From the IMG/VR virus record IMGVR_UViG_3300046006_001360, positions 1 to 58,738 of that record: 58,738 bases of DNA; one strand, 5' to 3'. Position numbers and translations under genes: made by a program. Within the stretch, counting starts at the first letter, position 1; every line of letters starts with the position of its first letter. This document shows positions 7,534 through 53,835 of this stretch, piece by piece. The notes under the pieces were generated by a model. That model was not told the DNA's origin. It did not search any database and saw nothing but the letters and a program-made list of their open reading frames with translations. This stretch comes from a virus.

Positions 7534-8289
7534 TTAATCCCAAACTTCAGTATACTGTCCACCCACAATCATAACACCTTGTTTCCAGTCAAAATCTAAA
7601 CGATCTTTCTTAAACATGTAGTGGTTCTTAATGATATCTTCAGTTTCCTTTTCGGACTTACCAAGAGCAACATTAAGATCTTTAATTACATAAGCCTTAT
7701 CATAAGATTTTGTAATATGTACCGATGCATGTCTACCAATACCTTGGTCTCTTGTGTTAATTGTTTTATACTCGCTTTTCGTAGCATGCCACATTTGAAA
7801 TAAACGACTAATTAAGTCATCATTAAGTGGTTGACTTTGTGAAAATTTAATCCAATCTTTTACTTCTTTTGCAATATTAGATTTCTTAGGATTTGTTAAA
7901 TCAAACTTTTTGTAATTGTTAATATAATTAAGACCAGAAACTCCAATTCCACCGTAAGGTTCCATAGTAGCGGTTTTATCAGCATTAATAATGTCATGAT
8001 ACGTCACAGATGCTTTGACATACAATGGCTGAATATTGCAATTTTGTAAAATCTTAGCCTTTTTAGGATCTAGCCATGACCAGTCTTTTGCTTCGTATGT
8101 ATTTGTAATTCTTGCATAACCTTTTGACCACTCATAATAAGTATTGTCCTTGCCATTTTGTCCATAAGAAACTTCACGAAAATTAGAAAGCATAGCTTTT
8201 TCAAGGTCTTTTACTAAAGCAACCTCTGCAGGATTAATTCCTTTACTGTCTTCGGAAAGAAATTCATAGTATTCTTTAACGTGCTTCAT
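7534..8289 (-). CDS. Predicted internal head protein with capsid-targeting-like N-terminus
   Basis: I choose the ATG at 8289, giving 251 residues starting MKHVKEYYEFLSEDS; the longer frame back to 8370 runs into the upstream gene, whose stop lies one base before this ATG. The start matches the N-terminal pattern shared by at least nine other proteins here and by the T4 internal-protein targeting sequence MKTYQEFIAE; LSE before Asp is a possible prohead-protease cut. The rest is a soluble alpha/beta domain with EPYGGIGVSGLNYINNY and TRDQGIGRHASVHITKSYD; no family recognised. It is the only such protein inside the baseplate cassette. Confidence 0.7.
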   Translation of the reverse strand: MKHVKEYYEFLSEDSKGINPAEVALVKDLEKAMLSNFREVSYGQNGKDNTYYEWSKGYARITNTYEAKDWSWLDPKKAKILQNCNIQPLYVKASVTYHDIINADKTATMEPYGGIGVSGLNYINNYKKFDLTNPKKSNIAKEVKDWIKFSQSQPLNDDLISRLFQMWHATKSEYKTINTRDQGIGRHASVHITKSYDKAYVIKDLNVALGKSEKETEDIIKNHYMFKKDRLDFDWKQGVMIVGGQYTEVWD

Positions 8290-8290
8290 T

Positions 8291-9697
8291 TTATTTTTTT
8301 GCTTTTTTAATCTCTTCTTTCTTCTTATGATCATCATGTTTAAATCCACCATCAGATTCAGATGGTTCAATTAACTCAACAATCATTGTTTCTTTGGAAA
8401 CTTTTGCAAGTTTACCAATTTCTCCATTACGAATAACTCCTTTATTTACTTCACAGTTAATGACGAAACGCTTGTTTTCAATAAAACAATCATTACAAAC
8501 ATTTGTAACGTGAAGTGGGGTATCAGCAATTTTAGAAAAGTCAAATACATTCTCTTTCATAGCCCAAGAATTGGTAATTCTTGAGTTCTTAACAGTACAG
8601 TTATAAAACCATGAACGGTCAAAAACACCCTGGATCTCACAATTGATAAATTCAATATCTTCAACTTTACAATTGTTTAACTTTGTATCTTGAAGCTGAA
8701 AACGACCTAGGTCAGTATCATAATTAAACTTTCCTTTTTTCATTCCGCCTGTAACTACTAGATCAAATAATTTGTCTCTAAGATTTCCCCATACAGCAGA
8801 TAAAGATTGGTCATCATTAATTAAATCCATTGATAACTCAATCTCAGGATAGTTCTTTTTAAACTCTCCGTACTTAATAAATGATTTGTAAATGATTTCT
8901 TGTTGAGCCATCATATCTTTAAACTTTGCACGGTCAACAGGTGAGTATTGACCGTTAAAGTTTAATGTGTTAAACATATGTAATATGAATCCGTCTACCA
9001 AACCAATTATCTTACGAGTTTTTGTTTGATAATCTTTTCCACCCATGTATCTGTATTCTAAATATCCTTTCTCCAGTTTAGTAAAATTAACTCCAAAATA
9101 CTTTTCATCAGGGATTGCCATTGTTGAACGGCTAAACTCTTCTAATGATGGAGAATAAAACATAATCTTGTTAGGTCTTAAGTTTTTAATACTTCTTGCA
9201 TATACAGATTCCTCTCTCTGTGGAAATACCGCATAAATAGGTTTTTCGTCAAAGTCAAGAATAAACTTAGCCACATTCATTTGTGGAATATTAACTAAGG
9301 TAGGTAATTTGTTTGGGTCTAAGCTAATGTTAGCATGTATAGAACATCTTTCATTAGTATAGCCATTGTCTTTAATCCACTCAAACATTTTAATTAATGT
9401 ATTACGAGCATCTTTATAAGACATTGGCCCAGTAACAAGCTCCATCATATTCTTTCCACCTGAATAATCAGGCTCAAGTTTAAAAATATCTGATGTTGGA
9501 GTAATTGGTGAATGGTATAGCGGTTTTGGTTCTTTAATATTACTAAGAGCCATAGGAATAACTACCCTTTTGCTGATATACTTTGCAATAGATCGCGACG
9601 TCTTTTCAATTGGCAAGTTTGAATAAAATTCAAATTCGTAACCAATCTTTGCGCCATCGAGTATTTCTGCCTCAGTATAAGACTTTTTAATTTTCAT
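8291..9697 (-). CDS. Amidoligase-like protein with C-terminal repeat domain
   Basis: 468 residues. Residues about 15-270 match the pattern of the Amidoligase_2 family (glutamine-synthetase-like COOH-NH2 ligases): GYEFEFY at 19-25, GKNMMELVTGP around 81-91 (family pattern ELVSPP), CSIHANISL around 118-126 and GYLEYRYMGG around 211-220 (family pattern TIEFR). Family members are thought to form amide bonds on peptides or small molecules. Residues about 330-400 look like pentapeptide or beta-helix repeats (KLNNCKVEDIEFINCEI), and the C-terminus is Lys/Glu-rich. It overlaps the zinc-ribbon gene by 11 bases. Whether it modifies virion protein or host peptidoglycan cannot be told from sequence. Confidence 0.6.
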   Translation of the reverse strand: MKIKKSYTEAEILDGAKIGYEFEFYSNLPIEKTSRSIAKYISKRVVIPMALSNIKEPKPLYHSPITPTSDIFKLEPDYSGGKNMMELVTGPMSYKDARNTLIKMFEWIKDNGYTNERCSIHANISLDPNKLPTLVNIPQMNVAKFILDFDEKPIYAVFPQREESVYARSIKNLRPNKIMFYSPSLEEFSRSTMAIPDEKYFGVNFTKLEKGYLEYRYMGGKDYQTKTRKIIGLVDGFILHMFNTLNFNGQYSPVDRAKFKDMMAQQEIIYKSFIKYGEFKKNYPEIELSMDLINDDQSLSAVWGNLRDKLFDLVVTGGMKKGKFNYDTDLGRFQLQDTKLNNCKVEDIEFINCEIQGVFDRSWFYNCTVKNSRITNSWAMKENVFDFSKIADTPLHVTNVCNDCFIENKRFVINCEVNKGVIRNGEIGKLAKVSKETMIVELIEPSESDGGFKHDDHKKKEEIKKAKK

Positions 9698-9824
9698 TTC
9701 GCTTTACCCTTAATTTTATTTCATAATTCTCTATACATTCTTCACATACTTCAGTTCCGTCCGACGCTGACTTAAGTTGACATAAGCAACCTAATTGTGT
9801 TTTACATCTTGGACATTCTGCCAT
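9687..9824 (-). CDS. Small zinc-ribbon protein
   Basis: 45 residues starting MAECPRCKTQLGCLC. It has a CxxC pair at 4-7, CLC near 13-15 and CxxC (VCEECIE) near 27-31, so it should bind one zinc ion. It starts two bases after the stop of the S1-domain gene and overlaps the start of the amidoligase-like gene by 11 bases, implying translational coupling. The conserved Cys pairs and exact packing make it a credible gene despite its length. Function unknown; nucleic acid or protein binding is typical for such ribbons. Confidence 0.65.
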   Translation of the reverse strand: MAECPRCKTQLGCLCQLKSASDGTEVCEECIENYEIKLRVKRNEN

Positions 9825-9825
9825 G

Positions 9826-11031: not shown

Positions 11032-11043
11032 ATTTTTGCTTTT

Positions 11044-11054
11044 AGTATATATCC
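11044..11054 (-). promoter_or_regulatory. Late-type promoter candidate for S1 gene
   Basis: On the minus strand the sequence GGATATATACTAAAAGC lies in the 53-base gap between the 920-residue gene and the S1 gene, about 13 bases before the ATG. The same GRATATATA-x-TAAA pattern occurs before many other genes in the window and resembles the T4 late promoter TATAAATA. No experimental support. Confidence 0.4.
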
Positions 11055-11084
11055 GCGAAGTTTGATCATATAATTTTAAGGTTC

Positions 11085-13847: not shown

Positions 13848-13857
13848 GTTTCATTGA

Positions 13858-16622: not shown

Positions 16623-16637
16623 AATTAATAAGTATTT

Positions 16638-18811: not shown

Positions 18812-18821
18812 TACTTATTAA

Positions 18822-21728: not shown

Positions 21729-22263
21729 TTCCTGTTGCTTTAAGGTAAAAGTAATTAAATAATCTAAGGAATGCTGCCAATGCTAATGTTTCTTCAGTAA
21801 CCATAATTTCATTAGATGGCATCATTTCTAATTTTGAAAGCATTTCCTTTTTACTGCCATCAGTTTCAGGAGTCTTTGCCGATAATCCTGTTACATCAAC
21901 CGCAAATGTTGGAACTTGTCTGTCACTGTCTTTATAAGGATAAAAGTTACCTAAATAAATCCATCTTGCATTTTCATCATCAGGTGTTGTGTAACCACCT
22001 TCTTCAGTTAGTTCACGTTTAGCAGTAGACAGTAAATCAGCGTCTTTATCATCAACAGTTCCTGTAATTATTGTATGACAAAAATCACCTTCACGCATTG
22101 TGTTGTATTCTTTAAGTAATCCAACTTTGCTAATCATTTTCATGTCATCTACAGTAAATGGCAAAACACCAACTGACATGGATTTCATTTTTATCTTTTC
22201 GTGACCTTCAATTTTAATAACATCAAAATGTTTAAAACTTTTAAGTACTTTATACTCTTTCAT
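21718..22263 (-). CDS. Nudix hydrolase
   Basis: 181 residues. Around 69-92 a Nudix box is visible: a Gly, acidic residues, then KRELTEEGGY, matching the core REUxEExGU; the usual first Glu is replaced or displaced by about one residue, so the box is slightly irregular. Nudix enzymes cleave nucleoside diphosphates linked to another group; in T4 such enzymes act on NDP compounds or RNA caps. The substrate cannot be inferred. It starts inside the last 14 bases of the upstream gene. Confidence 0.75.
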   Translation of the reverse strand: MKEYKVLKSFKHFDVIKIEGHEKIKMKSMSVGVLPFTVDDMKMISKVGLLKEYNTMREGDFCHTIITGTVDDKDADLLSTAKRELTEEGGYTTPDDENARWIYLGNFYPYKDSDRQVPTFAVDVTGLSAKTPETDGSKKEMLSKLEMMPSNEIMVTEETLALAAFLRLFNYFYLKATGNVQ

Positions 22264-22810
22264 ATTTTTCTAAATTTTCTGTTAGTTCTTGAGTAGAAGC
22301 TGGTATGTCAAAAATATCAGATGTAAGTTCAAGAGCTATTTGTTGTTTTAAACTTTCAACCATTTCTGGTGTAATACTATCTTGTAAGTATTTTAAAACT
22401 TGTTCTTGGCCATCTTCAAAAGAAGAAGCTAAAACTTTAATTAAGTCAAACGGAGGTACATCTATTTGAATAGTAATAGCAACTTTTTGAATAGATTTCT
22501 TTGAAGATAAAAGCAATGCTTCTAAAGGACTGGTAGTTTTAACAGGTTCTTCTTTAACTACTTGACTCACTGCAGCTACAGGTTCAACTCGCTGTAGTGG
22601 TTGTGGCGCCATATCGTTTAGCATGATAAGACTATCAGGGCTATCATCTGCTATTTCTAAAATGTAATCACCAAGTAAGCTTGCATTACATCGGCTGCCA
22701 TCAATGAAATTTAAGAATTGCATTCCACCTTCTTCAACGATTTCACTGTCTGATTTTACAACGTCTCCGGCTTTTTCACCTTTGATCCATTGATAAGTTT
22801 TAAGACTCAT
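22250..22810 (-). CDS. Hypothetical protein of Nudix operon
   Basis: 186 residues from the ATG at 22810 (MSLKTYQWIKGEKAGDVV). I prefer this start because the longer frame to 22984 overlaps another gene completely and because a late-type promoter lies just before 22810. N-terminal region looks beta-rich, then a Pro/Val/Glu linker and a helical C-terminus (QEQVLKYLQDSITPEMVESL). The first residues resemble the capsid-targeting pattern, but I see no clear protease site, so I do not include it in that set. Function unknown. Confidence 0.6.
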   Translation of the reverse strand: MSLKTYQWIKGEKAGDVVKSDSEIVEEGGMQFLNFIDGSRCNASLLGDYILEIADDSPDSLIMLNDMAPQPLQRVEPVAAVSQVVKEEPVKTTSPLEALLLSSKKSIQKVAITIQIDVPPFDLIKVLASSFEDGQEQVLKYLQDSITPEMVESLKQQIALELTSDIFDIPASTQELTENLEKYERV

Positions 22811-22820
22811 ATTATTTGTT

Positions 22821-22834
22821 TTAGTATATATTTC
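22821..22834 (-). promoter_or_regulatory. Late-type promoter candidate
   Basis: Minus-strand GAAATATATACTAAAAC fills the short gap between the TAG stop at 22836 and the ATG at 22810. It is almost identical to the promoter candidate before the S1 gene. It supports 22810 as the true start of the downstream gene. Confidence 0.45.
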
Positions 22835-22835
22835 A

Positions 22836-23162
22836 CTAGATTTCAAGGAAGTTTCTGTACTCTCTGTGGTACTCGACCATCCATTCTTCTGTGAATCCGC
22901 TTGCGGCCCACGAGAGGTACTCTTGCCTAAAATTTTCCAAAGCGTATTCGATATGATTCCCATAGTCTCCGTGTGAAAGTTCATTTAAAGATTGATAAGA
23001 AATTCTAAAGGTATGCTGTGTTCCTTTAACACGCCAGTAGAAATTCTTTTGATTAGATATGTTCCCGTAGCCATACTCGACAACGAGCGGAGTCCAGCCA
23101 TTAGGTCTAACGCTAATTTCCCCTTTTCCGTATAAATCGTCAAAATCTTGATGAAATGGCAT
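22836..23162 (-). CDS. Hypothetical protein
   Basis: 108 residues, aromatic-rich and acidic, with WRVKGTQHTFRISYQSLNEL and a C-terminal helix (EEWMVEYHREYRNFLEI). No signal or membrane segment. It follows the 78-residue gene by three bases and ends with TAG, an uncommon stop here. Family not recognised. Confidence 0.65.
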   Translation of the reverse strand: MPFHQDFDDLYGKGEISVRPNGWTPLVVEYGYGNISNQKNFYWRVKGTQHTFRISYQSLNELSHGDYGNHIEYALENFRQEYLSWAASGFTEEWMVEYHREYRNFLEI

Positions 23163-23507: not shown

Positions 23508-23840
23508 TTATAATTCCCAAGTTTTATGTTCACCAGTTTCTTTAATTTGTTTAGCATCAGGAAACTTCTTTTTAACAAAAGTTTTTATTGCTTCAAAGTT
23601 ATCTCTAATTTCGCTGTACACTGCCATTAGAGTGCCATGTCCTACTCCGCTATAAAACAATATATTAAAAGATTTTGTTTCTGTGTTAAAATTACAGCTT
23701 TTAATTATATTAGCCTTAGCAATTCTTTCCCAAAACAAGTTTTTAAATTCATCAAGTTCTGCTTTACTTAAATCTTTAAAAGTTTGTCCTTCAAATATTT
23801 CGTCATTAACAAATGACTCAAATGTTTGTATATGTTTCAT
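23508..23840 (-). CDS. Predicted internal head protein, targeting-like N-terminus
   Basis: 110 residues starting MKHIQTFESFVNDEIFEG. The start closely matches its neighbour (MKHFKTFESFVNE), and IFE before Gly is a good prohead-protease-type site that would leave a mature protein of about 93 residues. The remaining domain is small alpha/beta (FNILFYSGVGHGTLMAVYSE, ending in a Lys-rich helix). No enzymatic family recognised. It is last in its operon, followed by a strong terminator. Confidence 0.7.
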   Translation of the reverse strand: MKHIQTFESFVNDEIFEGQTFKDLSKAELDEFKNLFWERIAKANIIKSCNFNTETKSFNILFYSGVGHGTLMAVYSEIRDNFEAIKTFVKKKFPDAKQIKETGEHKTWEL

Positions 23841-23842
23841 TA

Positions 23843-24301
23843 TTACAATTCTCCAAGCATGAACACTTTACCGTTCTCACCTTTCATAGTGTAAAAGATT
23901 GTGTCAATTTTATCATCTTCATCATAATCAGAATCAATCCATTGGCAAGGTTTTCTATCAATGATTAAACAATCTTCGCCAGGCTCATCACCTGTTCTGC
24001 TATAGTTGTGTCCAATACTCATCATGCTTGGCTTTATTTTGGCTTTGCCAACATCACCTGGTTTACAAGTATAAAGATCAACTCCATCAGCTTCTGATTT
24101 GAATGTATCCCCTTTCTTAGCGTTTTTCCAAAACTTGTTCCATTCAGAAGAATCGTCTCCAATACGGTCATCAATAGTTTCACCTGGAAACCAAGCAGTT
24201 CCTTCATTAAGTTCTTCTTCGGTTAGAGTGATATCTGCAATTTCATTTGTATATTCGCTCTTTTCGTTTACAAAAGATTCAAAAGTTTTAAAATGTTTCA
24301 T
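23843..24301 (-). CDS. Predicted internal head protein, targeting-like N-terminus
   Basis: 152 residues starting MKHFKTFESFVNEKSEY, almost the same first 13 residues as the next gene although the rest is unrelated. LNE before Gly at about 32 is a good protease-type site. The mature part is acidic, with DCLIIDRKPCQWIDSDYDED and a C-terminal IFYTMKGENGKVFML strand pair. No family recognised. A late-type promoter overlaps the end of the upstream gene just before this start. Confidence 0.7.
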   Translation of the reverse strand: MKHFKTFESFVNEKSEYTNEIADITLTEEELNEGTAWFPGETIDDRIGDDSSEWNKFWKNAKKGDTFKSEADGVDLYTCKPGDVGKAKIKPSMMSIGHNYSRTGDEPGEDCLIIDRKPCQWIDSDYDEDDKIDTIFYTMKGENGKVFMLGEL

Positions 24302-24321: not shown

Positions 24322-24335
24322 GACTATATATCTTT
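24322..24335 (-). promoter_or_regulatory. Late-type promoter candidate
   Basis: Minus-strand AAAGATATATAGTCTATAAAAT overlaps the stop of the 484-residue gene and lies about 20 bases before the ATG at 24301. It matches the recurrent GATATATA pattern. Confidence 0.35.
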
Positions 24336-25778
24336 AGATAGTTTAGCCTTTTTAAGTAAATTTCTTCTGCGTGATGCCTCGCGTTGTTTTTCTTTATGTG
24401 CTTCCCACTTAACAGGATCCGCCATTAGCCTTGCTTTAGAAGCGGCAGATTGTTCTCGTTGTTTTTTAAGGTACTCCGCAAGTAAAACAGGATCCGCGTA
24501 AATTTTAGCTTTAAGAGCCGCAGATTGTTCTCGTTGTTTTTGACGATGTGCCTCAAGACGAATAGGATCTGCTTTAATCTTTTCCATAAGTAAGCGTGAT
24601 GCCTCACGATTCTTTTCTTTTGCTAACTCAACAGATTTTTCCAATTCATCAGAATAGTCAAGCATCTCTGGAAATTCTTTGATGTATTCTTCACGTTCAG
24701 ATTTTGTCATCCTACCATATTTACTAATTTCGATTTGTAACCAATCAGATTTACGAATACTTACACCTATTGATAACTCTTGACCTACACCCCAACCAGA
24801 GTAAGATATGATTTTACCATATTCCATGATTTCATCAAGTGAAGCTCCGTTAATCTTAAAGAGTTTACATTTTGGATTTTCATCTTTACCATCACCAAAG
24901 ATTAGTAAATCATCAAACCCGGAATAATCATAGTAGTTTAATATCTGAACTGCAAGAAAAATATTTGAAAGTTCTTCTTTGTTTCTTAAACCGTTATGAA
25001 CTCGCGTAATAAGTTCATTCTTATATGTAAGGAATGTTTCAGGATGTTGCGATAATGTCATGATAAACGTCTCAGCATCAACATATGATATACCATCTTT
25101 AAGTAGTGGGTATACATAGGCTTTAAGATACGAAGATGATAAAGTACGGAACTCAACATCAATGTTAAACATCTTATTAAGTTTATCCAAAGCATCTAAT
25201 CCATTGGAGACTTTGCCAATACCACACAAGCGACCCATTTTACCCTTTACTTCAATTCCTCTTTCAGTAGCTGGATCCCAAAGATCTCCTTTAGTTCCTT
25301 TTTGGAAAGTAGTAAAACATGAGAACATTAATTCGCTTGGACCCATATCACCAGGCTGTTCTTTAAATAATTCCTCAAAGAACTCTGGTGTAAAAAAGTT
25401 GTAATGATTGGTTAAAACTGATATGATATCTACAGGTTCGTCAGATAAAGATTCTGCTGTAATGTACGCTGGATTTTTAATCATATCCGTTAAGATGTCA
25501 AGATTTTCAGTACCGCCATTATAGAATGCTTTAATTAAGCGTCCTATGATTTTGGTACCGGTGGTTCTTGCAGACGGTGGAAGACGGTCAAATATAATGT
25601 CAAGAATTTCTGCAAAGCGGTCTTCACAAAGAACGTTCTTAATTGCATTTAGTTTCTCGATGTATCTTTCATCATCAACGTTTAAAACACCGAGTAATAC
25701 TTTTTTATTGCTATTTGGTTTCTTAAGGTAAATGTTAGAGCCTTCTGCAGTAATCTCATGATATGTATTAATACTCAT
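24324..25778 (-). CDS. PD-(D/E)XK-like protein with C-terminal 25-residue repeats
   Basis: 484 residues. Around 149-180 the pattern E149...KGTKGDLWD (D165)...GIEVKGKMGR (E176, K178) fits the restriction-endonuclease-like catalytic layout. The C-terminus (about 388-470) has three and a half tandem repeats of 25 residues with the core KQREQSAA...ADPV; two are nearly identical at the DNA level 75 bases apart. Similar charged repeats occur in DNA-binding and endonuclease proteins of phages. It sits inside the head-targeted block but has no clear targeting site itself. Nuclease activity is inference; stop is TAG. Confidence 0.6.
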   Translation of the reverse strand: MSINTYHEITAEGSNIYLKKPNSNKKVLLGVLNVDDERYIEKLNAIKNVLCEDRFAEILDIIFDRLPPSARTTGTKIIGRLIKAFYNGGTENLDILTDMIKNPAYITAESLSDEPVDIISVLTNHYNFFTPEFFEELFKEQPGDMGPSELMFSCFTTFQKGTKGDLWDPATERGIEVKGKMGRLCGIGKVSNGLDALDKLNKMFNIDVEFRTLSSSYLKAYVYPLLKDGISYVDAETFIMTLSQHPETFLTYKNELITRVHNGLRNKEELSNIFLAVQILNYYDYSGFDDLLIFGDGKDENPKCKLFKINGASLDEIMEYGKIISYSGWGVGQELSIGVSIRKSDWLQIEISKYGRMTKSEREEYIKEFPEMLDYSDELEKSVELAKEKNREASRLLMEKIKADPIRLEAHRQKQREQSAALKAKIYADPVLLAEYLKKQREQSAASKARLMADPVKWEAHKEKQREASRRRNLLKKAKLSKDI

Positions 25779-26154: not shown

Positions 26155-26238
26155 GTGTATAGTTTTATATTGATAGTTAAAATTAATACAAAAAACCCAC
26201 AAATAAAAATTTGTGGGACTAAAGTTATTAACAATTTT
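26155..26238. repeat. 84-bp duplicated intergenic cassette, copy 1
   Basis: Identical to 36157-36240 except for one base (A at 26218, T at 36220). It holds, on the minus strand, the box TTGTTAATAACTTTAG, an intrinsic terminator and the promoter-like end TATTAATTTTAACTATCAATA. It separates two genes with unrelated products, as does copy 2. Confidence 0.95.
26190..26217 (-). terminator. Intrinsic terminator in duplicated cassette
   Basis: 9-bp stem CCCACAAAT / ATTTGTGGG with a 4-base loop, followed on the minus strand by six T. It ends the transcript of the 280-residue gene. Confidence 0.85.
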
Positions 26239-26241: not shown

Positions 26242-27084
26242 TTATTTAATACGGTACTCAGTAGCAATATTACGTAAATCTTTGGTGGGTAAATTTTCAA
26301 TTGCTTTAAGAATAATCTTTCTTTCACCTGCAAGTTTTTGAATATCGCTTCCACTAATACCTTTAATTGTATAAGTTTCAGTAGGTTTAAACCCTAAGAT
26401 ATTTTGTAGTGCATCTCCAGCACCAAGTCTTCCTTTATTATCACCGTGCAATTTATCTACATTATTAATGAAAGAAGTTAATAAGTCTTTACCTGACACA
26501 GCGGTAGTCTTTTCAACCACAAAGTCATTCCCACTTTTATAACAAGCAGCAATAGAATAAGTTCCAGACGGTTCAACCTTTGGGCGAATACCTGCCGCAA
26601 GATCTATAAAGTATTGATCTTTTTCTTTATCACTTACCGGAGATAACCCTCCGCTGTATATGATACTAAAGATTTGATTAACTTTGATTCTTGAACTCCC
26701 AAGAACTTTCATAAATCCAACTTGCTTTGATGATTTCACTGAAACTTTTTCACCGTTTGGCATTGTAACATCAGAAAAGATTGTATCAGCTTCACCGTAA
26801 TTATTTGAGTTGCTTCCTTTAAGTAAAATAGCAACAAGATCTTCAGTGTATTTTGAAACTTCTCGAGCATCTTTATCAAGAACATCTAATAAATGTTCAA
26901 AGAAATTTATTTCATTAAGTACCGCACCTTCATTCAAAGCATTAGCTTTATCATTTAAGATGTCACTATAATTTACTACTTTAGTGTTACCTCCTGAATT
27001 AACATATGCCTCTAAATACTGAAATGATTTAGCAGAAGTTGATTCGTTAAGTTCCATCCAACTATTATAATTCTTAAGACTCAT
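26242..27084 (-). CDS. Predicted internal head protein, possible nuclease fold
   Basis: 280 residues starting MSLKNYNSWMELNESTS, with LNE before Ser at 14 and a second LNE before Gly at 52 as protease-type sites. Around 98-120 (GEADTIFSDVTMPNGEKVSV then KSSKQVGF) there is an Asp followed by S-V-K, a layout seen in some PD-(D/E)XK restriction enzymes. The remainder is soluble alpha/beta. The nuclease reading is weak, the head-targeting reading moderate. It is followed by the duplicated terminator cassette. Confidence 0.65.
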   Translation of the reverse strand: MSLKNYNSWMELNESTSAKSFQYLEAYVNSGGNTKVVNYSDILNDKANALNEGAVLNEINFFEHLLDVLDKDAREVSKYTEDLVAILLKGSNSNNYGEADTIFSDVTMPNGEKVSVKSSKQVGFMKVLGSSRIKVNQIFSIIYSGGLSPVSDKEKDQYFIDLAAGIRPKVEPSGTYSIAACYKSGNDFVVEKTTAVSGKDLLTSFINNVDKLHGDNKGRLGAGDALQNILGFKPTETYTIKGISGSDIQKLAGERKIILKAIENLPTKDLRNIATEYRIK

Positions 27085-27098: not shown

Positions 27099-27554
27099 TT
27101 AAAATTTCATCTGCTTTACTATACGCAGATTTTTTTGTGGGTTAAAGACTAATAAAGATTCCCCATCACCCCAATCTCTAGGATCGTAGTCCCAATGAAA
27201 GAAACCATCACACTTTCCAATAAAGGGTTTAATTAACTTATTACGTTCTCTTACATCAGGCTGCGCTGTAAGATCAGCAACCAATTCTTCAAAATCTATT
27301 CCTAGCACTTCTGATAACTTTTTAGCATCATCTTGTGAAAGCATGTTACCAGATACTCTTACTTCATATGTATATGCTTCTTCAAGTCCATCATCAATAG
27401 AATTACTATGATATGCTTTAGCAAACACAGGGTTTGCGGTTACCCAAACTGGTGCAGGTTTAAAAGAAGAAATCTTAGTACCTGACGTATGATAAGCTAC
27501 GTTATTAAAACTGCTTTCATATAAGAAATTTTCAAATGTACTAATATGTTTCAT
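27099..27554 (-). CDS. Predicted internal head ADP-ribosyltransferase-like protein
   Basis: 151 residues starting MKHISTFENFLYESSF; LYE before Ser at 13 is a protease-type site, leaving about 138 residues. The mature part looks like the small ART fold of phage polyvalent proteins: YHTSGTKISSFKP (21-33, first motif), VWVTANPVFAKAYHS (36-50, strand then helix), then KCDGFFHW (114-121) and GESLLVFNP (131-139, third motif region). T4 packages the ART Alt and injects it to modify host RNA polymerase; this could be a much smaller counterpart. Catalysis is inferred from pattern only. Confidence 0.55.
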   Translation of the reverse strand: MKHISTFENFLYESSFNNVAYHTSGTKISSFKPAPVWVTANPVFAKAYHSNSIDDGLEEAYTYEVRVSGNMLSQDDAKKLSEVLGIDFEELVADLTAQPDVRERNKLIKPFIGKCDGFFHWDYDPRDWGDGESLLVFNPQKNLRIVKQMKF

Positions 27555-27575: not shown

Positions 27576-27905
27576 TTAGTTCATATCTTGAGTGTTACCT
27601 TGACGCATGTCTCCGTCTGGTGCGTCTGGTGTATTCATTAAACCTTCACACGTAGATTTCATTCCTTCCATGAATAAATCCATCCAAGCTTCAGCTTCTT
27701 TTAGATAACCATCAGCTTTATGTTCAGTGTTATCATCATTATGATATTCGTTACATTCAGTCATTGCCATTTCCATACATTCTTTTAGTTTATTACATAA
27801 ACTTTCAGACATAGCTGGATTTGTTGATACACCCATTCCTGACGGCGTTGCTTCTGATGTTTCAGTTTCTTTAACGAAATCACTAAAACTTTTAATTACT
27901 CCCAT
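27576..27905 (-). CDS. Predicted internal head protein, targeting-like N-terminus
   Basis: 109 residues starting MGVIKSFSDFVKETETSEA; TSE before Ala at 18 is a possible site. The rest is acidic and Met-rich with three Cys and a helical stretch (LCNKLKECMEMAMTECNEYH), ending in a Pro/Asp/Asn tail. No enzyme motif. It lies within the run of targeting-type genes, 16 bases from its upstream neighbour. Confidence 0.6.
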   Translation of the reverse strand: MGVIKSFSDFVKETETSEATPSGMGVSTNPAMSESLCNKLKECMEMAMTECNEYHNDDNTEHKADGYLKEAEAWMDLFMEGMKSTCEGLMNTPDAPDGDMRQGNTQDMN

Positions 27906-27920: not shown

Positions 27921-28109
27921 TTATGCGCCCATTGCGTCCTCTGAGTCATCATAGTCTGTTTCACCGGCACCGCTATCTTCTGCACTACCGTCGCCATCAA
28001 CGTAAACTTTATCTCCGTCTTTAGCAGCTTGAGCTAAGGCTTGATCTTTTTCTTTATCAGTAGTTTCGTCTCCGATAAATTCTTCGTATGTTTTAATTAT
28101 GTTTTTCAT
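27921..28109 (-). CDS. Small acidic predicted internal head protein
   Basis: 62 residues: a targeting-like start (MKNIIKTYEEFIGDETT; compare T4 MKTYQEFIAE) followed by an extremely acidic, Gly/Asp/Ser-rich tail that is probably disordered. The start overlaps the stop of the 384-residue gene by one base. Such an acidic peptide might act as head core or DNA mimic; neither is shown. Confidence 0.6.
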   Translation of the reverse strand: MKNIIKTYEEFIGDETTDKEKDQALAQAAKDGDKVYVDGDGSAEDSGAGETDYDDSEDAMGA

Positions 28110-29263
28110 TATTCTTTAGGTTTTTCTTCGTTAGGAGTTTCTTCCTTAGGTTCTTCCTTTTTTTCGTCACCGCCTACAAGTTCATTAATTACTCCATAGA
28201 CTGCTAATGCAAGACCACCGTATTTCATAAACTTGATAGCCATACCAAATCCTGGGATAGCAAAGCCAAGTCCTTTTTCTGCTAGACCTTGTAAATCCAT
28301 AACACCTTTCTTAAAAGTAGACTCTGCAAGATATCCCGCAGCAATTCCAACAAGCCCTGCAACAACTGGGAATTTAAAAGGCCCAGGTGCACTTGCAATT
28401 TTGGTTGCAAGAATAGACATTCTTTCCAATCCTGTCTCAGCAGCAGAAGCAACTTTAGCTTCTATTTTATGAAACACTGAAAATGGAGGCATGTGTGCAA
28501 GTTTACTCATGATAGATGAAATGAATGGTATTTGTAAACCACCTTTTGCTTCCGCATGGTCACTTTCAAATAATTCGCATTCACTAAGAATATCATCTAT
28601 TGAATAATTTTCTTTAAGCGTTTCAGCTACCGCATAGTAAAATGAGGATTCAAATGCTTGTATATATGATTCTTCAGTAGTTGCTGCTTTTTCTCCACCT
28701 TTTACCAATTCTCCAACGAAATCTCCAGTTGCCCATTTAGCAACCGCTCCACCCATTGCAGCAAGGTTTTTACCTTCCTCTGTAATTTTCTTGCGTTTAT
28801 CAGAATCTTTAAGATATGGCTGAATTTTTGCTTTAATCTTTTCTTTAGCCTTTTCAACAGAAGCACGAGCAGTATCTTTTGCTAAGTTCCATGCTTTTAA
28901 CAATACTTCTTTAACCTTACCTAAAACAGATTTAAGTGGCGCCATAAGTTTACCGCCAAACTTTAAAGCAGCTTGTGATTTTGCACCAAGTTTATCTGCA
29001 TAGTCTTTTCCCTTTTCTTTTATCTTTTCTTGTGCAGCAGCGGCAAGTGCCTTAAACTTATCAGCAAAACTTTCTTCATTAATACTTAAACAGGTTTCGA
29101 ATAAAGTATCTATAAGACCTTCGTTAATAAAGAACTGTAATGACTCGCTTTCTTCTAAAGAAGCACCACCTTTTTCAGCACAAGCTAAAAGAAATACTTC
29201 TTTAGATTTTGCCGTATGTCTAACGTCATAGGTTTCAATTATAAACTCTGTGTAATTCAGCAT
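28109..29263 (-). CDS. Predicted internal head protein, helical, membrane-active-looking
   Basis: 384 residues starting MLNYTEFIIETYD, the closest match to the T4 sequence MKTYQEFIAE (Y-x-E-F-I-x-E). Further protease-type sites follow (FINE before Gly at 48; SINE at 63). Residues 65-160 are amphipathic Lys/Ala helix, and the C-terminal part has hydrophobic Gly/Ala-rich stretches (about 298-314 and 331-364) before a Lys/Glu/Pro tail. It could be a pilot protein that helps DNA cross the membrane, or a core protein. It is first gene of its unit, with a late-type promoter. Confidence 0.65.
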   Translation of the reverse strand: MLNYTEFIIETYDVRHTAKSKEVFLLACAEKGGASLEESESLQFFINEGLIDTLFETCLSINEESFADKFKALAAAAQEKIKEKGKDYADKLGAKSQAALKFGGKLMAPLKSVLGKVKEVLLKAWNLAKDTARASVEKAKEKIKAKIQPYLKDSDKRKKITEEGKNLAAMGGAVAKWATGDFVGELVKGGEKAATTEESYIQAFESSFYYAVAETLKENYSIDDILSECELFESDHAEAKGGLQIPFISSIMSKLAHMPPFSVFHKIEAKVASAAETGLERMSILATKIASAPGPFKFPVVAGLVGIAAGYLAESTFKKGVMDLQGLAEKGLGFAIPGFGMAIKFMKYGGLALAVYGVINELVGGDEKKEEPKEETPNEEKPKE

Positions 29264-36156: not shown

Positions 36157-36240
36157 GTGTATAGTTTTATATTGATAGTTAAAATTAATACAAAAAACCC
36201 ACAAATAAAAATTTGTGGGTCTAAAGTTATTAACAATTTT
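36157..36240. repeat. 84-bp duplicated intergenic cassette, copy 2
   Basis: One mismatch to 26155-26238 over 84 bp. Contains GTTAATAAC box, terminator and promoter-like end. Lies between a glycosyltransferase-like gene and the 72-residue gene. Confidence 0.95.
36192..36219 (-). terminator. Intrinsic terminator in duplicated cassette
   Basis: 9-bp stem CCCACAAAT / ATTTGTGGG, 4-base loop and six T on the minus strand; ends the glycosyltransferase operon 39584 to 36239. Confidence 0.85.
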
Positions 36241-40023: not shown

Positions 40024-41079
40024 TTATTTTAAGATAGAGGCAACTTCATCCTCTGAATCTTTAGAAACTTTAAATATCTTATCTCGTGTGGCTATTGCCA
40101 TTGGGTCAGCGGCTTTGTTAAATTTAGAATCTCCACGTAATTCAGCCATCTTAGCAGAGTAATTTTGTGCAACGGCTCTTTTCATATCTGCTGCATTTTT
40201 AAACTGAACAGTTTTTCCATCAAGAATACCGTTTCTTTCAAGAACATCTGCAAGTGAAGAGATTCCTTTAGCAATTCCTGCTAATGTAAGATTCTTAGAA
40301 TCAATACCTGCAATATCTGACTGCTGAAATTCTGGTGATGTAGTGTTATCTTTTAAAGACATGAAGAAACTGACAATGTCTGTGAAAAGCGTTTTGAAAT
40401 TCATAGAGATTGCAAGTTCTTCAACATCTTTTCTCATACGAAACGGAACAAGTGCTCCTGCTTGAAGTTTTGCTCGTGCACCTCTATCTCCCATAGAAAT
40501 AGAAAGTGCATCAGCAAGTGAAGAGTAAAGGTTTCCTGAGACGAATCCTTTAATATTGTGAATAGGTGTAAAACGGTCAAGCGCCCATTCTACATATTTT
40601 GCGTGTGTAGAGACAAAATCTACTTGAATGTATACATTGGGTTGTACTTCAGCAATAAGAACTGCTCCGGTACCGTCTGCACCTCGAGAATCTTTTAAAT
40701 CTACACCTTTGTATTTTGTTTCATTGAAGAATTGAAACATTGCTTTATTGTAAAAACGAATAGCGTCAGTTTCAGTTTTACGAGGATCTGAAGAATCACC
40801 ATAGACAGGATATTCTACAAGATAATCTATATCTCCGTATATTTTCTCCGGTTCATTCTTTAAATCTTCTTCGTAATAGATTCCTGAGCCTACAGGACGG
40901 ATTCCTTTTAAAGGTAATGTATCAGGATAAGTCTTAGACATCCATTTCTCAAAGTCAGCAAATAATTGCTTAACATAATCATCAGCAACTTTTAGTATTG
41001 CTGGTGTGATTTTTATTCCTTGAGTTTTAATAGAAGACCATCCTCCTTCATTTAATATCCATTCTGTATATGATAGCAT
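40024..41079 (-). CDS. Predicted internal head nucleotidyltransferase-fold protein
   Basis: 351 residues starting MLSYTEWILNEGGWSS: the start matches MLNYTEFIIE of the 384-residue protein and the T4 targeting sequence, and LNE before Gly at 11 is an ideal prohead-protease site. Behind it is a Pol-beta-type nucleotidyltransferase layout: PVGSG (63-66), YGDIDYLVEYP (81-91, the DxD pair) and YIQVDF (150-155, third Asp). The C-terminal half is helical. This superfamily transfers nucleotides to proteins, RNA or small molecules. It could be an injected enzyme; the target is unknown. Confidence 0.65.
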   Translation of the reverse strand: MLSYTEWILNEGGWSSIKTQGIKITPAILKVADDYVKQLFADFEKWMSKTYPDTLPLKGIRPVGSGIYYEEDLKNEPEKIYGDIDYLVEYPVYGDSSDPRKTETDAIRFYNKAMFQFFNETKYKGVDLKDSRGADGTGAVLIAEVQPNVYIQVDFVSTHAKYVEWALDRFTPIHNIKGFVSGNLYSSLADALSISMGDRGARAKLQAGALVPFRMRKDVEELAISMNFKTLFTDIVSFFMSLKDNTTSPEFQQSDIAGIDSKNLTLAGIAKGISSLADVLERNGILDGKTVQFKNAADMKRAVAQNYSAKMAELRGDSKFNKAADPMAIATRDKIFKVSKDSEDEVASILK

Positions 41080-41804: not shown

Positions 41805-42071
41805 TTATTTTGGTACGGCTAGTTCATCAATCCAGCCTTGTGATAAATCATGGTTTAGCCAAGTACATAAATGTGTATCAACAATCATTGAAGAATTTGT
41901 CCATACATTACCTACACGTCTTTTGATGATAACGTGAATAAGTTCGTGGTCTTTAGGATCTTGTATGTATTCACGTATAAGTGGACTTCTTGGTCTAGTC
42001 ATACGGTGTAGAACTTTTGCATCTTCAAGATACATTTTTTCTTCTTCTTCATCATATTTATTCCAGCTCAT
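41805..42071 (-). CDS. Small hypothetical protein
   Basis: 88 residues, acidic N-terminus (SWNKYDEEEEKMYLEDAKVL), His-rich and with HELIHVIIKRRVGNVW. Overlaps the cyclic-phosphate receiver gene by 14 bases. Family not recognised. Confidence 0.6.
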   Translation of the reverse strand: MSWNKYDEEEEKMYLEDAKVLHRMTRPRSPLIREYIQDPKDHELIHVIIKRRVGNVWTNSSMIVDTHLCTWLNHDLSQGWIDELAVPK

Positions 42072-42501
42072 TGACTTGTCTTAAGAATTTTTTGTATTGT
42101 GTTAATAATGACTCAATGTTTTTACCACCTACAGGATTTGCGCTATGAATATAAAAATCGGGTAACGGCATTCCTTTGGTCTCACAAAAATCAACTAACC
42201 AATTTGCGCAGTCTTTTCCTGTCTTTTCAGTAAAAGTAGCATCGTCTGGATTAGGTGGGTTTTCTCGCCCACCATTATCAAAAAAGTATTTTGTATGTTC
42301 TGGGCCAAGATCATGGTCAAAAGATATAATACTTGGTGCTTCTTTTGTAGTTTCCCAACTATTTTTAATTTGACTTGTAAATTCATCGTAACTTCTAACT
42401 ATAATCCAAGTCGGATCATTGTATAGTTCAGCCAAGTAAGGAAATTTCTTTGCACTTACATGTGGCATTCGGATATCGTCAAGGTATAATTTGTAACTCA
42501 T
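42058..42501 (-). CDS. Cyclic-phosphate processing receiver-domain (cREC) protein
   Basis: 147 residues. LYLDDIRMP at 5-13, SIISFDHDLGPE around 57-68 and FYIHSANPVGGKNIESL near 117-132 match the receiver-like domain found in RNA-repair and cyclic-phosphate-processing gene sets. It lacks a kinase partner, so it is not a classical response regulator. Function probably in RNA end processing or binding of 2',3'-cyclic phosphate; inferred from family. Next to a metallophosphoesterase gene two genes downstream. Confidence 0.7.
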   Translation of the reverse strand: MSYKLYLDDIRMPHVSAKKFPYLAELYNDPTWIIVRSYDEFTSQIKNSWETTKEAPSIISFDHDLGPEHTKYFFDNGGRENPPNPDDATFTEKTGKDCANWLVDFCETKGMPLPDFYIHSANPVGGKNIESLLTQYKKFLRQVNELE

Positions 42502-42503
42502 GA

Positions 42504-42866
42504 TTAAAAGTATTTTTCTTCAATTATATCAGCAACTATGGTAATGATGTCTTCAACACTTTGTGCAGCGGGTGAAAATCTATTTCTAGGAGAATCACCC
42601 ATTCTTGTTAAGTATTCTACTAACACAGCTTCTCTATTAATAGGTTTCTTTATATTTTCAGGGTCATCGAGAAAATCTTGCAGTCTAGTAAATTCTTCAT
42701 GTCCTATCATCATAGAGACAAAGCCTGATTTTCTAGCCTCTACGTCAAAAGCAACATCAGATTTGTTTAACCTAAGTAATTTTGAATGAGGACCAAATTG
42801 ATGTCTAAACCAAGAAGAAAGGCTTTCCACCTTTTCACCTCTTACATAGATTAAGTATTGTGTCAT
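42504..42866 (-). CDS. Hypothetical protein
   Basis: 120 residues, soluble, with MTQYLIYVRGEKVESLSSWF at the start and a C-terminal helix. Two bases from the downstream gene. Family not recognised. Confidence 0.6.
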   Translation of the reverse strand: MTQYLIYVRGEKVESLSSWFRHQFGPHSKLLRLNKSDVAFDVEARKSGFVSMMIGHEEFTRLQDFLDDPENIKKPINREAVLVEYLTRMGDSPRNRFSPAAQSVEDIITIVADIIEEKYF

Positions 42867-43375: not shown

Positions 43376-43387
43376 GATTGATTGTGT

Positions 43388-44236: not shown

Positions 44237-44238
44237 GT

Positions 44239-44808: not shown

Positions 44809-44824
44809 ATAATAAGTTAGTTAA

Positions 44825-44838
44825 ATTTTATATACATC
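44825..44838 (-). promoter_or_regulatory. Promoter candidate
   Basis: Minus-strand GGATGTATATAAAATTTAAC, about 17 bases before the ATG at 44808; related to the GRATATATA series. Confidence 0.35.
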
Positions 44839-44847
44839 CAAGAACTA

Positions 44848-45459: not shown

Positions 45460-45460
45460 G

Positions 45461-47382: not shown

Positions 47383-47391
47383 AATTAATTT

Positions 47392-48129: not shown

Positions 48130-48130
48130 A

Positions 48131-49525: not shown

Positions 49526-49528
49526 TAA

Positions 49529-50944: not shown

Positions 50945-50958
50945 TTGTTTTGTATAGA

Positions 50959-52551
50959 TTATTTATCTCCGTCTTTTATAGCCTCGATTAGTTCAATACC
51001 TCTTAACCAAAATGCTTCTTGTCGATTTTTATCATCAGTATGAAAAGGAATTGCTGTGATTAATAAAACAATTGCCAATCGTTTAAGTAAGTTTACATCG
51101 TAAAAGTTTTCTACAAGTTGCTCTTCAAGCATAGCTGATAAGTTTTCCGTTCCAGGAACCCAGTCAATAGAACAAGTTTCTCCAAATAAGATATAACGAT
51201 CTGCCATAATCATACTGTACCCGCAGTAAAAATCTTGCATTAATTTTGCCATATCATATCGCATGTCGCCTTCAGTACCTTTAAGATTACCAAATGAACC
51301 TCGAGGATCAACAAATTTAATAGAACCTGAGTGTGGATCATAAATAAGATTTCCTAAATGAGAATCACCATGCATGATTTGTGACCAGTATGGATGAGGA
51401 TCTGAACATAACATGTAGCCAGTTTGCTCAACGAAATCTCTAACCATCTGAAACTTATCTTGAGAAGTAATAATAGTATCCTTCATGCCGTCAAGACGGT
51501 TTACATTTTTTAGAACATAAGCACGGAAGCATTCTTCTTTCATGCGATCTTCTGATATTTTAGAAGGTCTTTTAAAGACACCATGATGAATGTTTACAAT
51601 CTTACGTATAATATCATGCCAAATATCTGTTCTTAAATTATCATACACAATAATTTCGTTTAAAGCAATACCCGGTTCCAATGACATTGATAACTCACCA
51701 ACCTCAGACGGAAGTATTCTTGGAATGAATTGTGATGCCCAAGGATCTAGAGCTAAGAACCATTCTTTTTCATCTTGTATCTTTCTTTGCTTTTCCGGAG
51801 AATCACTAGATTTAGAAATGATATTATAGAATGTATCTACCTTGATCTTGTTAAATGATCTGGCAGTTCTTTGAAGCAATTTTGCTTTAGATTCGTAATA
51901 AGTATTAAGTTCGCCACAATCATACCATTCATTAGTACCTACAAGTTGCATTTTATAGCTTAAGATATAGTTTTCTAATAGAGCAGCAATTTGGTACTCA
52001 CCTTTATGTGTTGGTTTTTTCATGCCTACTTTCATAGAAGTATCAAATGCTTTACGATTAGCAAAGTTATACACACCAATTAATGCTAAATCTGTAGGAA
52101 CTGCAGTATCAGGTTTATCATACAGTTTACCGTCTTGGTCTACAAGACACCAACGATGAGGATCTTCAACAGATTGAACTGCTAAGAAATCTTTATGAAA
52201 GGGAAATTCATCAAGACAGATAGTATCACCTAACCAAACTGTTACACCAGATTCTTTATTCTCCAAGGCATTATGACCTAAAGATATTGCATGCAGCGGT
52301 CCAAGTTTTTCCTCTTGAACAACAGTTTTAATATTGGAAGTATTATAGACTCGGTTAACAAATTCTTTAATATCGCCAAGTTCATTCTCAACGATTACGA
52401 TTTCTCTAGTTGGATAATCTTTAAGTAGGGTTTCAATGATATATGAAATTAACGGACGACCGTTAACTGGGATCATTGCTTTACTTACACCTCGTGAAAG
52501 AGGTTTCATTCTACTGGCTAAACCAGCGGCTGGAATAATTACTGATGTCAT
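50959..52551 (-). CDS. Nucleotidyltransferase / kinase fusion (LicC-LicA-like)
   Basis: 530 residues, two domains. Residues 1-240 are a sugar- or choline-phosphate nucleotidyltransferase (TSVIIPAAGLASRMKPLSRG, then VSKAMIPVNGRPLISYI, WLGDTICL). The C-terminal part has the aminoglycoside/choline-kinase signature MHGDSHLGNLIYD and FVDPRGS. This is the activity pair of a LicC-type cytidylyltransferase with a LicA-type kinase, which activate phosphocholine-like groups. Next genes (HAD, then LicD-like) support an activated-group pathway. The actual small molecule (choline, sugar alcohol or other) is inferred. Confidence 0.65.
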   Translation of the reverse strand: MTSVIIPAAGLASRMKPLSRGVSKAMIPVNGRPLISYIIETLLKDYPTREIVIVENELGDIKEFVNRVYNTSNIKTVVQEEKLGPLHAISLGHNALENKESGVTVWLGDTICLDEFPFHKDFLAVQSVEDPHRWCLVDQDGKLYDKPDTAVPTDLALIGVYNFANRKAFDTSMKVGMKKPTHKGEYQIAALLENYILSYKMQLVGTNEWYDCGELNTYYESKAKLLQRTARSFNKIKVDTFYNIISKSSDSPEKQRKIQDEKEWFLALDPWASQFIPRILPSEVGELSMSLEPGIALNEIIVYDNLRTDIWHDIIRKIVNIHHGVFKRPSKISEDRMKEECFRAYVLKNVNRLDGMKDTIITSQDKFQMVRDFVEQTGYMLCSDPHPYWSQIMHGDSHLGNLIYDPHSGSIKFVDPRGSFGNLKGTEGDMRYDMAKLMQDFYCGYSMIMADRYILFGETCSIDWVPGTENLSAMLEEQLVENFYDVNLLKRLAIVLLITAIPFHTDDKNRQEAFWLRGIELIEAIKDGDK

Positions 52552-52940
52552 AGTTTATTTTCGACTAGGATGATTGGTTCAAAAAATTCTGGAGCACTTG
52601 TAGCAAATGCATGTAAAGATAAATTACGATTATCTACGTAAACAGGATTAGGACCCCAAGGTTTACCAAAGATAATAGAATCGTAAGGACAGTCATTGAC
52701 TTTAAGCCAATTAAGTAAACGATCTTCATGTTCTTTCTTAATCTTTTTAACATCTCCGGCAAATGTTTTCATACCGCGAGCTGTAAACAATATGATGCTA
52801 TGACCATCCTTTTTAAGACTACGAATCCTCTCAATGGTTAGTGGAATAGGCTGAGAATTATCATAATCATACTTTCCATCTTCTTTGAGAGGCGTGGTTA
52901 AAATGGTATCGTCAACATCAATAATAAATGTATGTATCAT
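52548..52940 (-). CDS. HAD-family phosphatase
   Basis: 130 residues. DVDDTIL at 8-14 (nucleophile), LFTARGM (motif II), a Lys near 99 and VYVDNRNLS (motif IV) are in place. Small HAD phosphatases of this type accompany capsule and phosphorylated-sugar pathways. Overlaps the fusion gene by four bases (ATGA), so they are co-translated. Predicted to dephosphorylate a pathway intermediate. Confidence 0.75.
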   Translation of the reverse strand: MIHTFIIDVDDTILTTPLKEDGKYDYDNSQPIPLTIERIRSLKKDGHSIILFTARGMKTFAGDVKKIKKEHEDRLLNWLKVNDCPYDSIIFGKPWGPNPVYVDNRNLSLHAFATSAPEFFEPIILVENKL

Positions 52941-52957
52941 AAATAAGTTTTATTGAA

Positions 52958-52968
52958 ATTATATACTT
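52958..52968 (-). promoter_or_regulatory. Late-type promoter candidate
   Basis: Minus-strand AAAGTATATAATTTCAATAAA, about 18 bases before the ATG at 52940. Confidence 0.35.
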
Positions 52969-52999
52969 TAAATAGTTAATAGTTTTCTGGGCAAAACAA

Positions 53000-53022
53000 T
53001 GGAGGACCTATAAAGACCTCCA
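53000..53022 (-). terminator. Possible terminator hairpin
   Basis: Six-pair stem TGGAGG / CCTCCA with an 11-base loop after the LicD-like gene; the following minus-strand T content (TTGTTTTG) is modest. Confidence 0.5.
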
Positions 53023-53067
53023 ATGTGTGAAAAAAAAATTATTGATATTATCTATATCAACATTATA

Positions 53068-53835
53068 TTACTTCTTGTACTTACCTTCTTTATGGGAATA
53101 GCAGTATGCTTTACCTTTTGCTCTGGATATAAATTCGCAATCATCGTTTAGACCTGAATTTGACTTTGGTGTTTTCCAATCTTTACCATAAAGATATTCT
53201 AAATAGACTTCAGGATCTCCAGGAATTGGAAAATCATACCCATCATGTTTTAAAGTTCCAAGTTTATCAAAATGCTTTGCATCAGTTAATTGAACTTCCC
53301 ATCCTGGATATCTTGTAATACGTTTCCCATCACCGTATGGATAATAGAAAAAGAAATCTCCAGGAACGCCAATTTTCTTTTTAGACATTGCGGTAACCTG
53401 AATTTCTTTACCATCTTTACCTTTAAGCGCAAGACCTACGTAAGGAATCTGGTGATAATCATCAGCATTTTCATCACTTACAAATAACTTATTAATTAAA
53501 GCACTCATTTTTGTTGGACGTTGTAAAACAAATTCTTTCTCTACATCTTCAAGAAATTCTTTTGTTACTGTTTCACCAAAGATAGCAACATCAGTATCGT
53601 TATCGTGCTTGATAAGTTTTTTGTCTCGGTATAAACCTAATAGTGAACCATAATCTATAAAGCACTTAACTTTATGTTTTTTACACAAGTCAATTTGTTT
53701 CTTTAAAGATTCGATTTTTAATTTGTTGTACTCTTCTTGTACTTCGTCAGATAGTCTTTTATCTACTCTATTGGTTCCTTCAAATACTTCGTTCTCTGTT
53801 AAGAACTCTTGAAAGCTAAACACAAAATTTGGCAT
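53068..53835 (-). CDS. LicD-like transferase with capsid-targeting-like N-terminus
   Basis: 255 residues starting MPNFVFSFQEFLTENEVFEG; the SFQEFLTE motif and VFE before Gly at 19 resemble the targeting and protease patterns of the head set. The body is a LicD-type fold: FIDYGSLLGLYRDKKLI (60-75), KHDNDTDVAIFG (76-87, the D-x-D-x-D metal site) and FPIPGDPEVYLEYLYG near the C-terminus. LicD transfers phosphocholine from CDP-choline to surface polymers. Adjacent to the kinase-nucleotidyltransferase fusion; either it uses their product or, if packaged, acts in the new host. Confidence 0.6.
   Translation of the reverse strand: MPNFVFSFQEFLTENEVFEGTNRVDKRLSDEVQEEYNKLKIESLKKQIDLCKKHKVKCFIDYGSLLGLYRDKKLIKHDNDTDVAIFGETVTKEFLEDVEKEFVLQRPTKMSALINKLFVSDENADDYHQIPYVGLALKGKDGKEIQVTAMSKKKIGVPGDFFFYYPYGDGKRITRYPGWEVQLTDAKHFDKLGTLKHDGYDFPIPGDPEVYLEYLYGKDWKTPKSNSGLNDDCEFISRAKGKAYCYSHKEGKYKK

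Follow-up and report, generated by a model that had tools for sequence, protein, structure and literature searches.

The window analysed here, which is the whole 58,738-base stretch of virus record IMGVR_UViG_3300046006_001360, carries genes mostly on its minus strand, and ten of them encode proteins that begin with a similar short aromatic N-terminus, hereafter called the tag. A first-pass annotation had picked out these ten N-termini, and all of them were found at the positions it gave, as open minus-strand reading frames with the start it described (Table 1); the start at 8289 is an internal ATG within a TTG-initiated open reading frame at 7534-8370. Comparison with related contigs suggests that, in a family of large uncultured phages, the same short and probably removable N-terminal tag stands on dozens of unrelated proteins.

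Table 1. Genes with the tag, and one untagged control, in the window (positions in the window; lengths in amino acids).
Position	Strand	Feature	Length	N-terminus	Further features
7534-8289	-	Tagged gene	251	N-terminus MKHVKEYYEFLSE then DS	
23508-23840	-	Tagged gene	110	N-terminus MKHIQTFESFVND; tag MKHIQTFESFVNDEIFE then G	
23843-24301	-	Tagged gene	152	Tag MKHFKTFESFVNE then K	Second site EELNE then G, residue 33
24324-25778	-	Divergent tag	484	MSINTYHEITAE then G	
26242-27084	-	Tagged gene	280	Tag MSLKNYNSWMELNE then S	Second site ALNE then G, residue 52
27099-27554	-	Tagged gene	151	Tag MKHISTFENFLYE then S	
27576-27905	-	Tagged gene	109	Tag MGVIKSFSDFVKE then T	
27921-28109	-	Tagged gene	62	Tag MKNIIKTYEEFIGDE then T	Acidic
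28109-29263	-	Tagged gene	384	Tag MLNYTEFIIE then T	Second site FFINE then G, residue 48
40024-41079	-	Tagged gene	351	Tag MLSYTEWILNE then GGW	
42058-42501	-	Untagged cREC (cyclic-phosphate processing receiver) protein, control			Family tagged in another phage contig (L161:6591-7043)
53068-53835	-	Tagged gene	255	MPNFVFSFQEFLTE then NEVFE then G	LicD domain from residue 51

A strict core of the form [YF]xx[FW][VILMF]x[ED], required close to the N-terminus, was matched by 8 of the 72 proteins of the window, all eight among the main ten, against 0.14 expected from the internal rate (3 in 15,328 positions) and 0.19 (maximum 3) in 1000 shuffles. A looser core matched 12 of 72, including all ten main genes, against about 1.0-1.2 expected; the two further proteins, at 42058-42501 (cREC) and 42504-42866, were judged by reading not to carry tags. 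Separate gene calling with a slightly wider core gave 8 of 74 against a shuffle mean of 0.24, one of these eight being the cREC false positive at 42058, and the genes starting at 8289, 27084 and 41079 not being among them. The first-pass annotation had also described a hydrophobic-x-E followed by Gly, Ser or Ala within residues 10-50 of most of these proteins, which we saw in eight of the ten. At residues 20-60 of tagged proteins the generic motif, hydrophobic-x-E-[GAS], occurred at chance level (34 versus 35.2 in shuffles) and the narrower hydrophobic-N-E-[GAS] was enriched (10 versus 1.8).

In the relatives (G and L numbers are working labels), strict counts were set against shuffle means and false matches were judged by eye. 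We counted 23 of 316 proteins in the 238-kb G007 (mean 1.0; two false), 11 of 88 in G009 (0.30), 24 of 662 in the 462-kb LR756500 (2.5; one or two false) and 3 of 56 in an extra contig of the window's own phage (0.12; one false, two true), that is about 21-23 tags in each of G007 and LR756500. There was no clear enrichment in S-N03 (0 of 226) or SPO1 (0 of 199), and there were no strict tags in the first 50 kb of RaK2; the shared N-terminal motif described in passages of the RaK2 paper concerns tail spikes. A degenerate pattern for MKHIxTFExFhNE (h, hydrophobic), the strictest form of the tag, gave 88 matches in 63 stretches of viral contigs, representing 69 distinct proteins; a collection of genomes from 84,980 bacterial and archaeal species contained no match. 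A single match of the 88 starts a frame of just 26 amino acids, and the others start frames that either have 40 codons or more or are still open where the sequence ends. The residue after NE is Ser, Gly or Ala in 74 of the 88 matches (55 of the 69 distinct proteins). Throughout the loci chosen by this pattern, 205 of 768 genes (180 distinct) were strictly tagged, with up to 11 per locus. The counts in relatives, the locus counts and the set of 269 proteins described below contain some false-positive rows of the regular expression; those recognised by reading were cREC proteins (window 42058, L031:1021 and L123:14141), the window protein at 42504, an SNase (L161:2971), a TPP enzyme (L014:15511), L024:13866 and L030:5313. 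A Shine-Dalgarno-like sequence is absent before 86 of the 88 start codons, as is the case for Bacteroidota hosts. Among open-licence papers, we found no publication on this tag in these phages.

What follows the tag differs from protein to protein, as the first-pass annotation had stated. The 269 distinct tagged proteins (some regular-expression false positives included) fell into 173 body clusters, 129 of them with a single member. An alignment of 150 proteins (147 of 156 cluster representatives plus three) shares the tag only: its consensus is MKHIxTFExFLNE, almost nothing is conserved after it, and only the Met, the second aromatic residue and the Glu are conserved in at least 90% of sequences. 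These 150 proteins matched 35 Pfam families; the 25 that were listed, each in one member, include cREC_REC, PNK3P, LRR, DUF285, a DUF2201 metallopeptidase, LicD, PAP2, AAA and CTP_transf_like, and no MuF or portal family is among these 25. Three untagged proteins have their cREC domain from residue 3-5 onwards and the tagged one from residue 22, and the tagged CTP_transf_like domain starts at residue 21, aligned to residue 4 of the solved protein MJ0541; these displaced starts indicate that the tag is an add-on. The CTP_transf_like cargo is provisionally termed 'NMNAT-like'; the protein that it matches in the PDB bears the title hypothetical protein MJ0541, followed by five phosphopantetheine adenylyltransferases. 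The names of a ligase-like cargo (alignment A2) and a second nucleotidyltransferase-like cargo (A3) rest on motif reading, and no PDB sequence match was found for either.

The family of the window protein at 40024-41079 illustrates how the junction persists while the tag changes: a hydrophobic-x-E stands just before (M)GGW in all 22 loci, with varying tag text, one of these loci being the window's own phage, some having been found through the junction itself and two having just a short N-terminus. Its structural model has a predicted local distance difference test score (pLDDT) of 85, is confident except for residues 1-19 and weakly resembles the nucleotidyltransferases of the DNA polymerase lambda/beta type (E 2.5e-4, template modelling score 0.36). 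Five tagged paralogues with WDVSNVTNM-type repeats, one of them matched to DUF285, lie in G007 (L028:3543-10949), and the window's own phage has a large protein with similar repeats (L014:10972-13773). In LR756500, a C-terminal motif (N-A-D-D-F-G-F-F-D-N or similar; pieces L122, L128, L131, L137 and L138) occurs in 8 of 20 tagged and 5 of 642 other proteins, two of these five having a tag-like start.

Tagged genes behave as exchangeable cassettes, a property described here for the first time. Over the part of the window that G009 also covers (4435-39954), orthologues in G009 exist for 2 of 8 tagged genes, compared with 35 of 40 others (P=0.0008); counting the gene starting at 25778 as tagged gives 3 of 9 versus 34 of 39 (P=0.002). 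For the gene at 7534-8289 no orthologue was found among the five relatives searched, and G009, G010 and G002 have different tagged genes in its place, which is bounded by a conserved gene that ends at 7518 and another that starts at 8291. The protein of 23508-23840 has a match in G002 only (35%). An orthologue of 27099-27554 (L239, 72-73%) carries the tag MKHIKLYEEFLNE followed by G, orthologues of 27576-27905 in G009, G010, G005 and G007 have tag-like starts as well, and the G007 homologue of 53068-53835 has another tag, MNIKNYTDWLNE. The protein of 27099-27554 had looked like an ADP-ribosyltransferase, but no helpful match came from Pfam, PHROGs or PDB and its fold model was unreadable (pLDDT 44.9), so we make no claim; three other proteins suspected of this activity were likewise without such a match.

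Three weaker cases had been proposed in addition, and one of them holds in part. The gene starting at 25778 begins with MSINTYHEITAEG; its G007 orthologue is properly tagged (MKTHFLSYQDFLVE), and its close relatives, with the same or a similarly divergent start, lend half support only. This gene is conserved, at 87-88% in G009, G002 and G010, and perhaps encodes a stable head or core protein. The other two were dropped: 26151 (MKSMQDYLEQDG) has no second aromatic residue, and 22810 (MSLKTYQWIKGE) has the wrong spacing, its G007 counterpart being MTKEQIYQWTKGD. The true start of gene 22250-22984 may be the ATG at 22810 and not 22984, the G007 counterpart having a Met at about the same place. 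Elsewhere in the window, two genes are directly preceded, at about 26157-26217 and 36159-36217 (-), by almost the same sequence of about 60 bases (TTTGTGGGTTTTTTGTATTAATTTTAACTATCAATATAAAAC...), which has shorter or partial copies at about 32900 and 34495; by position it is promoter-like.

The first-pass annotation had made its reading depend on a gp21-type prohead protease in the same genome, and such a gene is present. A near-identical contig of the same phage (99.3-100% identity over the overlaps) extends past the right end of the window and holds, besides two more tagged genes, a head block with an S77 prohead protease of the T4 gp21 type that has a scaffold-like tail (621 amino acids for the fusion), a gp23-like capsid protein beside it (phrog_138, E=1e-31) and a core-like protein of 790 amino acids. 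H85, S140 and D168 of T4 gp21, which we take to be its catalytic residues, are conserved in 10 of 10 proteases compared, and in all ten a hydrophobic-x-E follows the protease domain (ITE in T4, INE or VNE in the clade). In all 17 capsid proteins that could be read (12 distinct sequences), the presumed propeptide has L(N/Y)E at its end; PTm1 and Lak-C1 were left out of this count because PTm1 aligns INE and the Lak-C1 start is probably miscalled under the standard code. The motifs of the tag (hNE/[SGA], the slash marking the putative cut), the capsid protein (L(N/Y)E/) and the protease junction (hxE/) thus agree, the latter two sites being themselves predicted. Comparison of the capsid protein places LR756500 (43%), the Lak phages (about 38-39%) and Tenacibaculum phage PTm1 (33%) nearest among named records; the fusion of PTm1 is annotated as 'prohead core scaffolding protein and protease'. 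S77 was also found in 16 of 20 further tag-bearing contigs. Fusion frames of about 577-673 amino acids are common in the clade (L015:235-2100; loci L219-L232), and an S77-like open frame of 132 amino acids occurs in G011, G012, G014 and G025 (L234-L237), in the first three as a second copy beside the full fusion.

The same motif recurs inside the cargo. When each cargo, from right after its tag, was aligned to the insides of other tagged proteins, we obtained 14 junctions, with Glu exactly at the junction in 11 (8.2% of control positions), hydrophobic-x-E exactly there in 10 (2.6%) and hydrophobic-x-E within one residue in 12 (7.8%), or in 9 of 11 when homologous junctions were counted once. 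One DUF285-repeat case is a clear miss, and another exception has Thr for the hydrophobic residue. The internal linkers (ESVINE/K, ESVVNE/A, ESELVE/A, ESFMNE/A, NRLNE/A and ESIDE/G) resemble the second half of the tag, and ES..hNE sites are enriched in tagged bodies (13 versus 0.7 in shuffles). Some cargo is apparently polyprotein, with the protease motif at internal domain borders, which is new here.

Taken together, the sequence data support the first-pass proposal of a modular head-targeting tag, from which we infer presence in the virion and injection. It seems to us quite likely that the tag serves as a modular propeptide for capsid targeting, like that of the T4 internal proteins, that the protease cuts the tag and some internal sites, and that the cargo is injected for early infection. 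The front half of the tag (MKHIxTF or similar) would bind the prohead core, and its end (xFhNE/) would be cleaved by the S77 prohead protease that the phage itself encodes, made fused to a scaffold-like part. As the head matures, cleavage after the Glu would remove the tag, and in some cargo the protease may cut further copies of the site within the protein. The freed proteins would remain with the DNA, be injected and act in the first minutes of infection, in RNA repair, removal of signal nucleotides, nucleotide chemistry and other counter-defence. A bolder version, in which a single tag would serve a set of injected effectors that is open, exchanges quickly and numbers dozens in each virion, part of it polyprotein with domains separated in the head by the prohead protease at ES..hNE/A linkers, we regard as evenly balanced between right and wrong. 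We know of no described phage with a delivery scheme in which tag-loaded polyprotein is cut in the head.

Chance as the origin of the shared N-termini is rejected by the enrichment in the window, the counts in relatives, the turnover and the lack of matches in bacterial and archaeal genomes. Head targeting and cleavage might be real and the tagged proteins nevertheless be structural or core components, kept or degraded in the head and not injected. Some tagged genes are indeed conserved or of low complexity (24324-25778, 28109-29263 and 27921-28109), the protein of 610-790 amino acids after the capsid gene is tag-like, and passages in one source describe T4 core proteins as likewise cut by gp21 (PMC5694885); we still hold this rather improbable, several cargoes matching enzyme families (cREC, PNK3P, PAP2, CTP_transf_like and LicD) and the fast turnover of tagged genes being unlike that of structural parts. 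It is very unlikely that the N-terminus is another signal, for membrane, tail, a phage compartment or degradation, which merely resembles a capsid-targeting sequence: the arrangement of aromatic residues could also suit a generic amphipathic helix (the 40024-41079 model has one at residues 4-8, at low confidence), but the tag ends in the same hydrophobic-x-Glu as the presumed capsid propeptide and the protease domain, and this motif marks internal domain borders too. Hardly credible is a shared N-terminus that is mainly a DNA feature, such as a translation-initiation or recombination element spread by copying. Codon identity within the tag is 0.737, compared with 0.552 predicted by codon usage (491 codon pairs), and two unrelated genes at L177 have tag DNA and upstream bases in common. 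Part of the sharing is therefore DNA copying, and the tag would then be a natural place for genes to be joined by recombination. Against DNA as the main cause, the same tag residues are encoded by differing codons within one genome, the consensus stops at the Glu, and homologues such as the E/GGW family keep the hydrophobic-x-E junction while the tag text changes.

Besides this codon agreement, several observations weigh against the capsid-targeting interpretation that we favour. Untagged proteins share two of the enrichments, that of hydrophobic-N-E-[GAS] in the contigs with tagged proteins (27 versus 6.6) and that of ES..hNE at these loci (28 versus 1.6), the latter set including some miscalled tagged genes and the protease-scaffold protein. 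The capsid site mostly reads LYE with D or N after it, in place of LNE with G, A or S. Of the first 10 relatives' records only 3 yielded S77, the seven misses being records of 8-88 kb that include G009 with its 11 tags, and S77 was not found in 4 of the 20 further tag-bearing contigs (93-126 kb); in G025, counted among the 16 positives, the 132-amino-acid frame is the sole match. PTm1 (2 of 309), PAU (1 of 290) and Lak-C1 (5 of 610, table 15) show no clear strict-tag enrichment, though they are relatives by capsid protein. T4 itself gave 4 of 260 (ipII, ipIII, gp61.1 and one more; shuffle mean 0.75), which merely equals the highest of 200 shuffles, and ipI and alt were not seen among the four. 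Finally, the LicD and DUF285-repeat cargoes have no evident early role.

On its sequence features, the system is a greatly expanded and more modular variant of the capsid-targeting system of T4. The features in common are a shared N-terminus of 10-20 residues on unrelated bodies, an S77 protease in the same phage and a gp23-type capsid protein, with cleavage predicted here from sequence. It differs in having 3-24 strict tags per genome or fragment scanned, where T4 has few such proteins, in the consensus MKHIxTFExFhNE, in its enzymatic cargo, in the protease fused to a scaffold-like part and in the apparent polyprotein cargo with ES..hNE/ linkers. The T4 internal proteins had been said to begin with MKTYQEFIAE, which holds for ipII and ipIII, the two looked at; the hypothetical T4 gp61.1 (NC_000866, 18966-19130) begins with MKTFKEFIKED, like the T4 capsid-targeting sequence, and is a candidate unrecognised internal protein. 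Passages in the T4 literature report that gp21 cuts Alt after ITE and LTE, that IPI acts against a restriction system and that IPIII is needed on one host (PMC3012670, PMC5694885, PMC9391042). For phiKZ and SPN3US, parts of two sources describe numerous head proteins whose propeptides are removed by cleavage after Glu and several of which are injected (PMC5694885, PMC13282480), the propeptides being mostly long (about 80-125 residues or more) with A/S/G-x-E sites (PMC5694885). Our phages likewise have many proteins with a Glu-ended N-terminal sequence and predicted cleavage, but the tag, at 10-15 residues, is no long propeptide and its site is hydrophobic-x-E (hydrophobic-N-E); a Pfam S77 match was not found in phiKZ. 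Polyvalent and MuF-type proteins, according to passages in PMC9503650, bring diverse enzymatic domains thought to be injected, as large fusions or attached to MuF or portal domains, whereas here the cargo lies in separate, mostly small genes with one putatively removable tag.

On a practical matter, the tag together with the protease might give a second tool for loading heads beside that of T4. Furthermore, being able to pick out candidate injected proteins by a sequence rule would make many genes of giant phages for which no role is known testable as early-infection or counter-defence factors; in the parts of a 2026 review consulted, only Tad1 is named as a described counter-defence in jumbo phages (PMC13282480). 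The tagged cREC and polynucleotide 3'-phosphatase-like proteins and CTP_transf_like enzymes suggest that activities for removing signal nucleotides, repairing RNA and carrying out nucleotide or NAD chemistry may be delivered together with the DNA.

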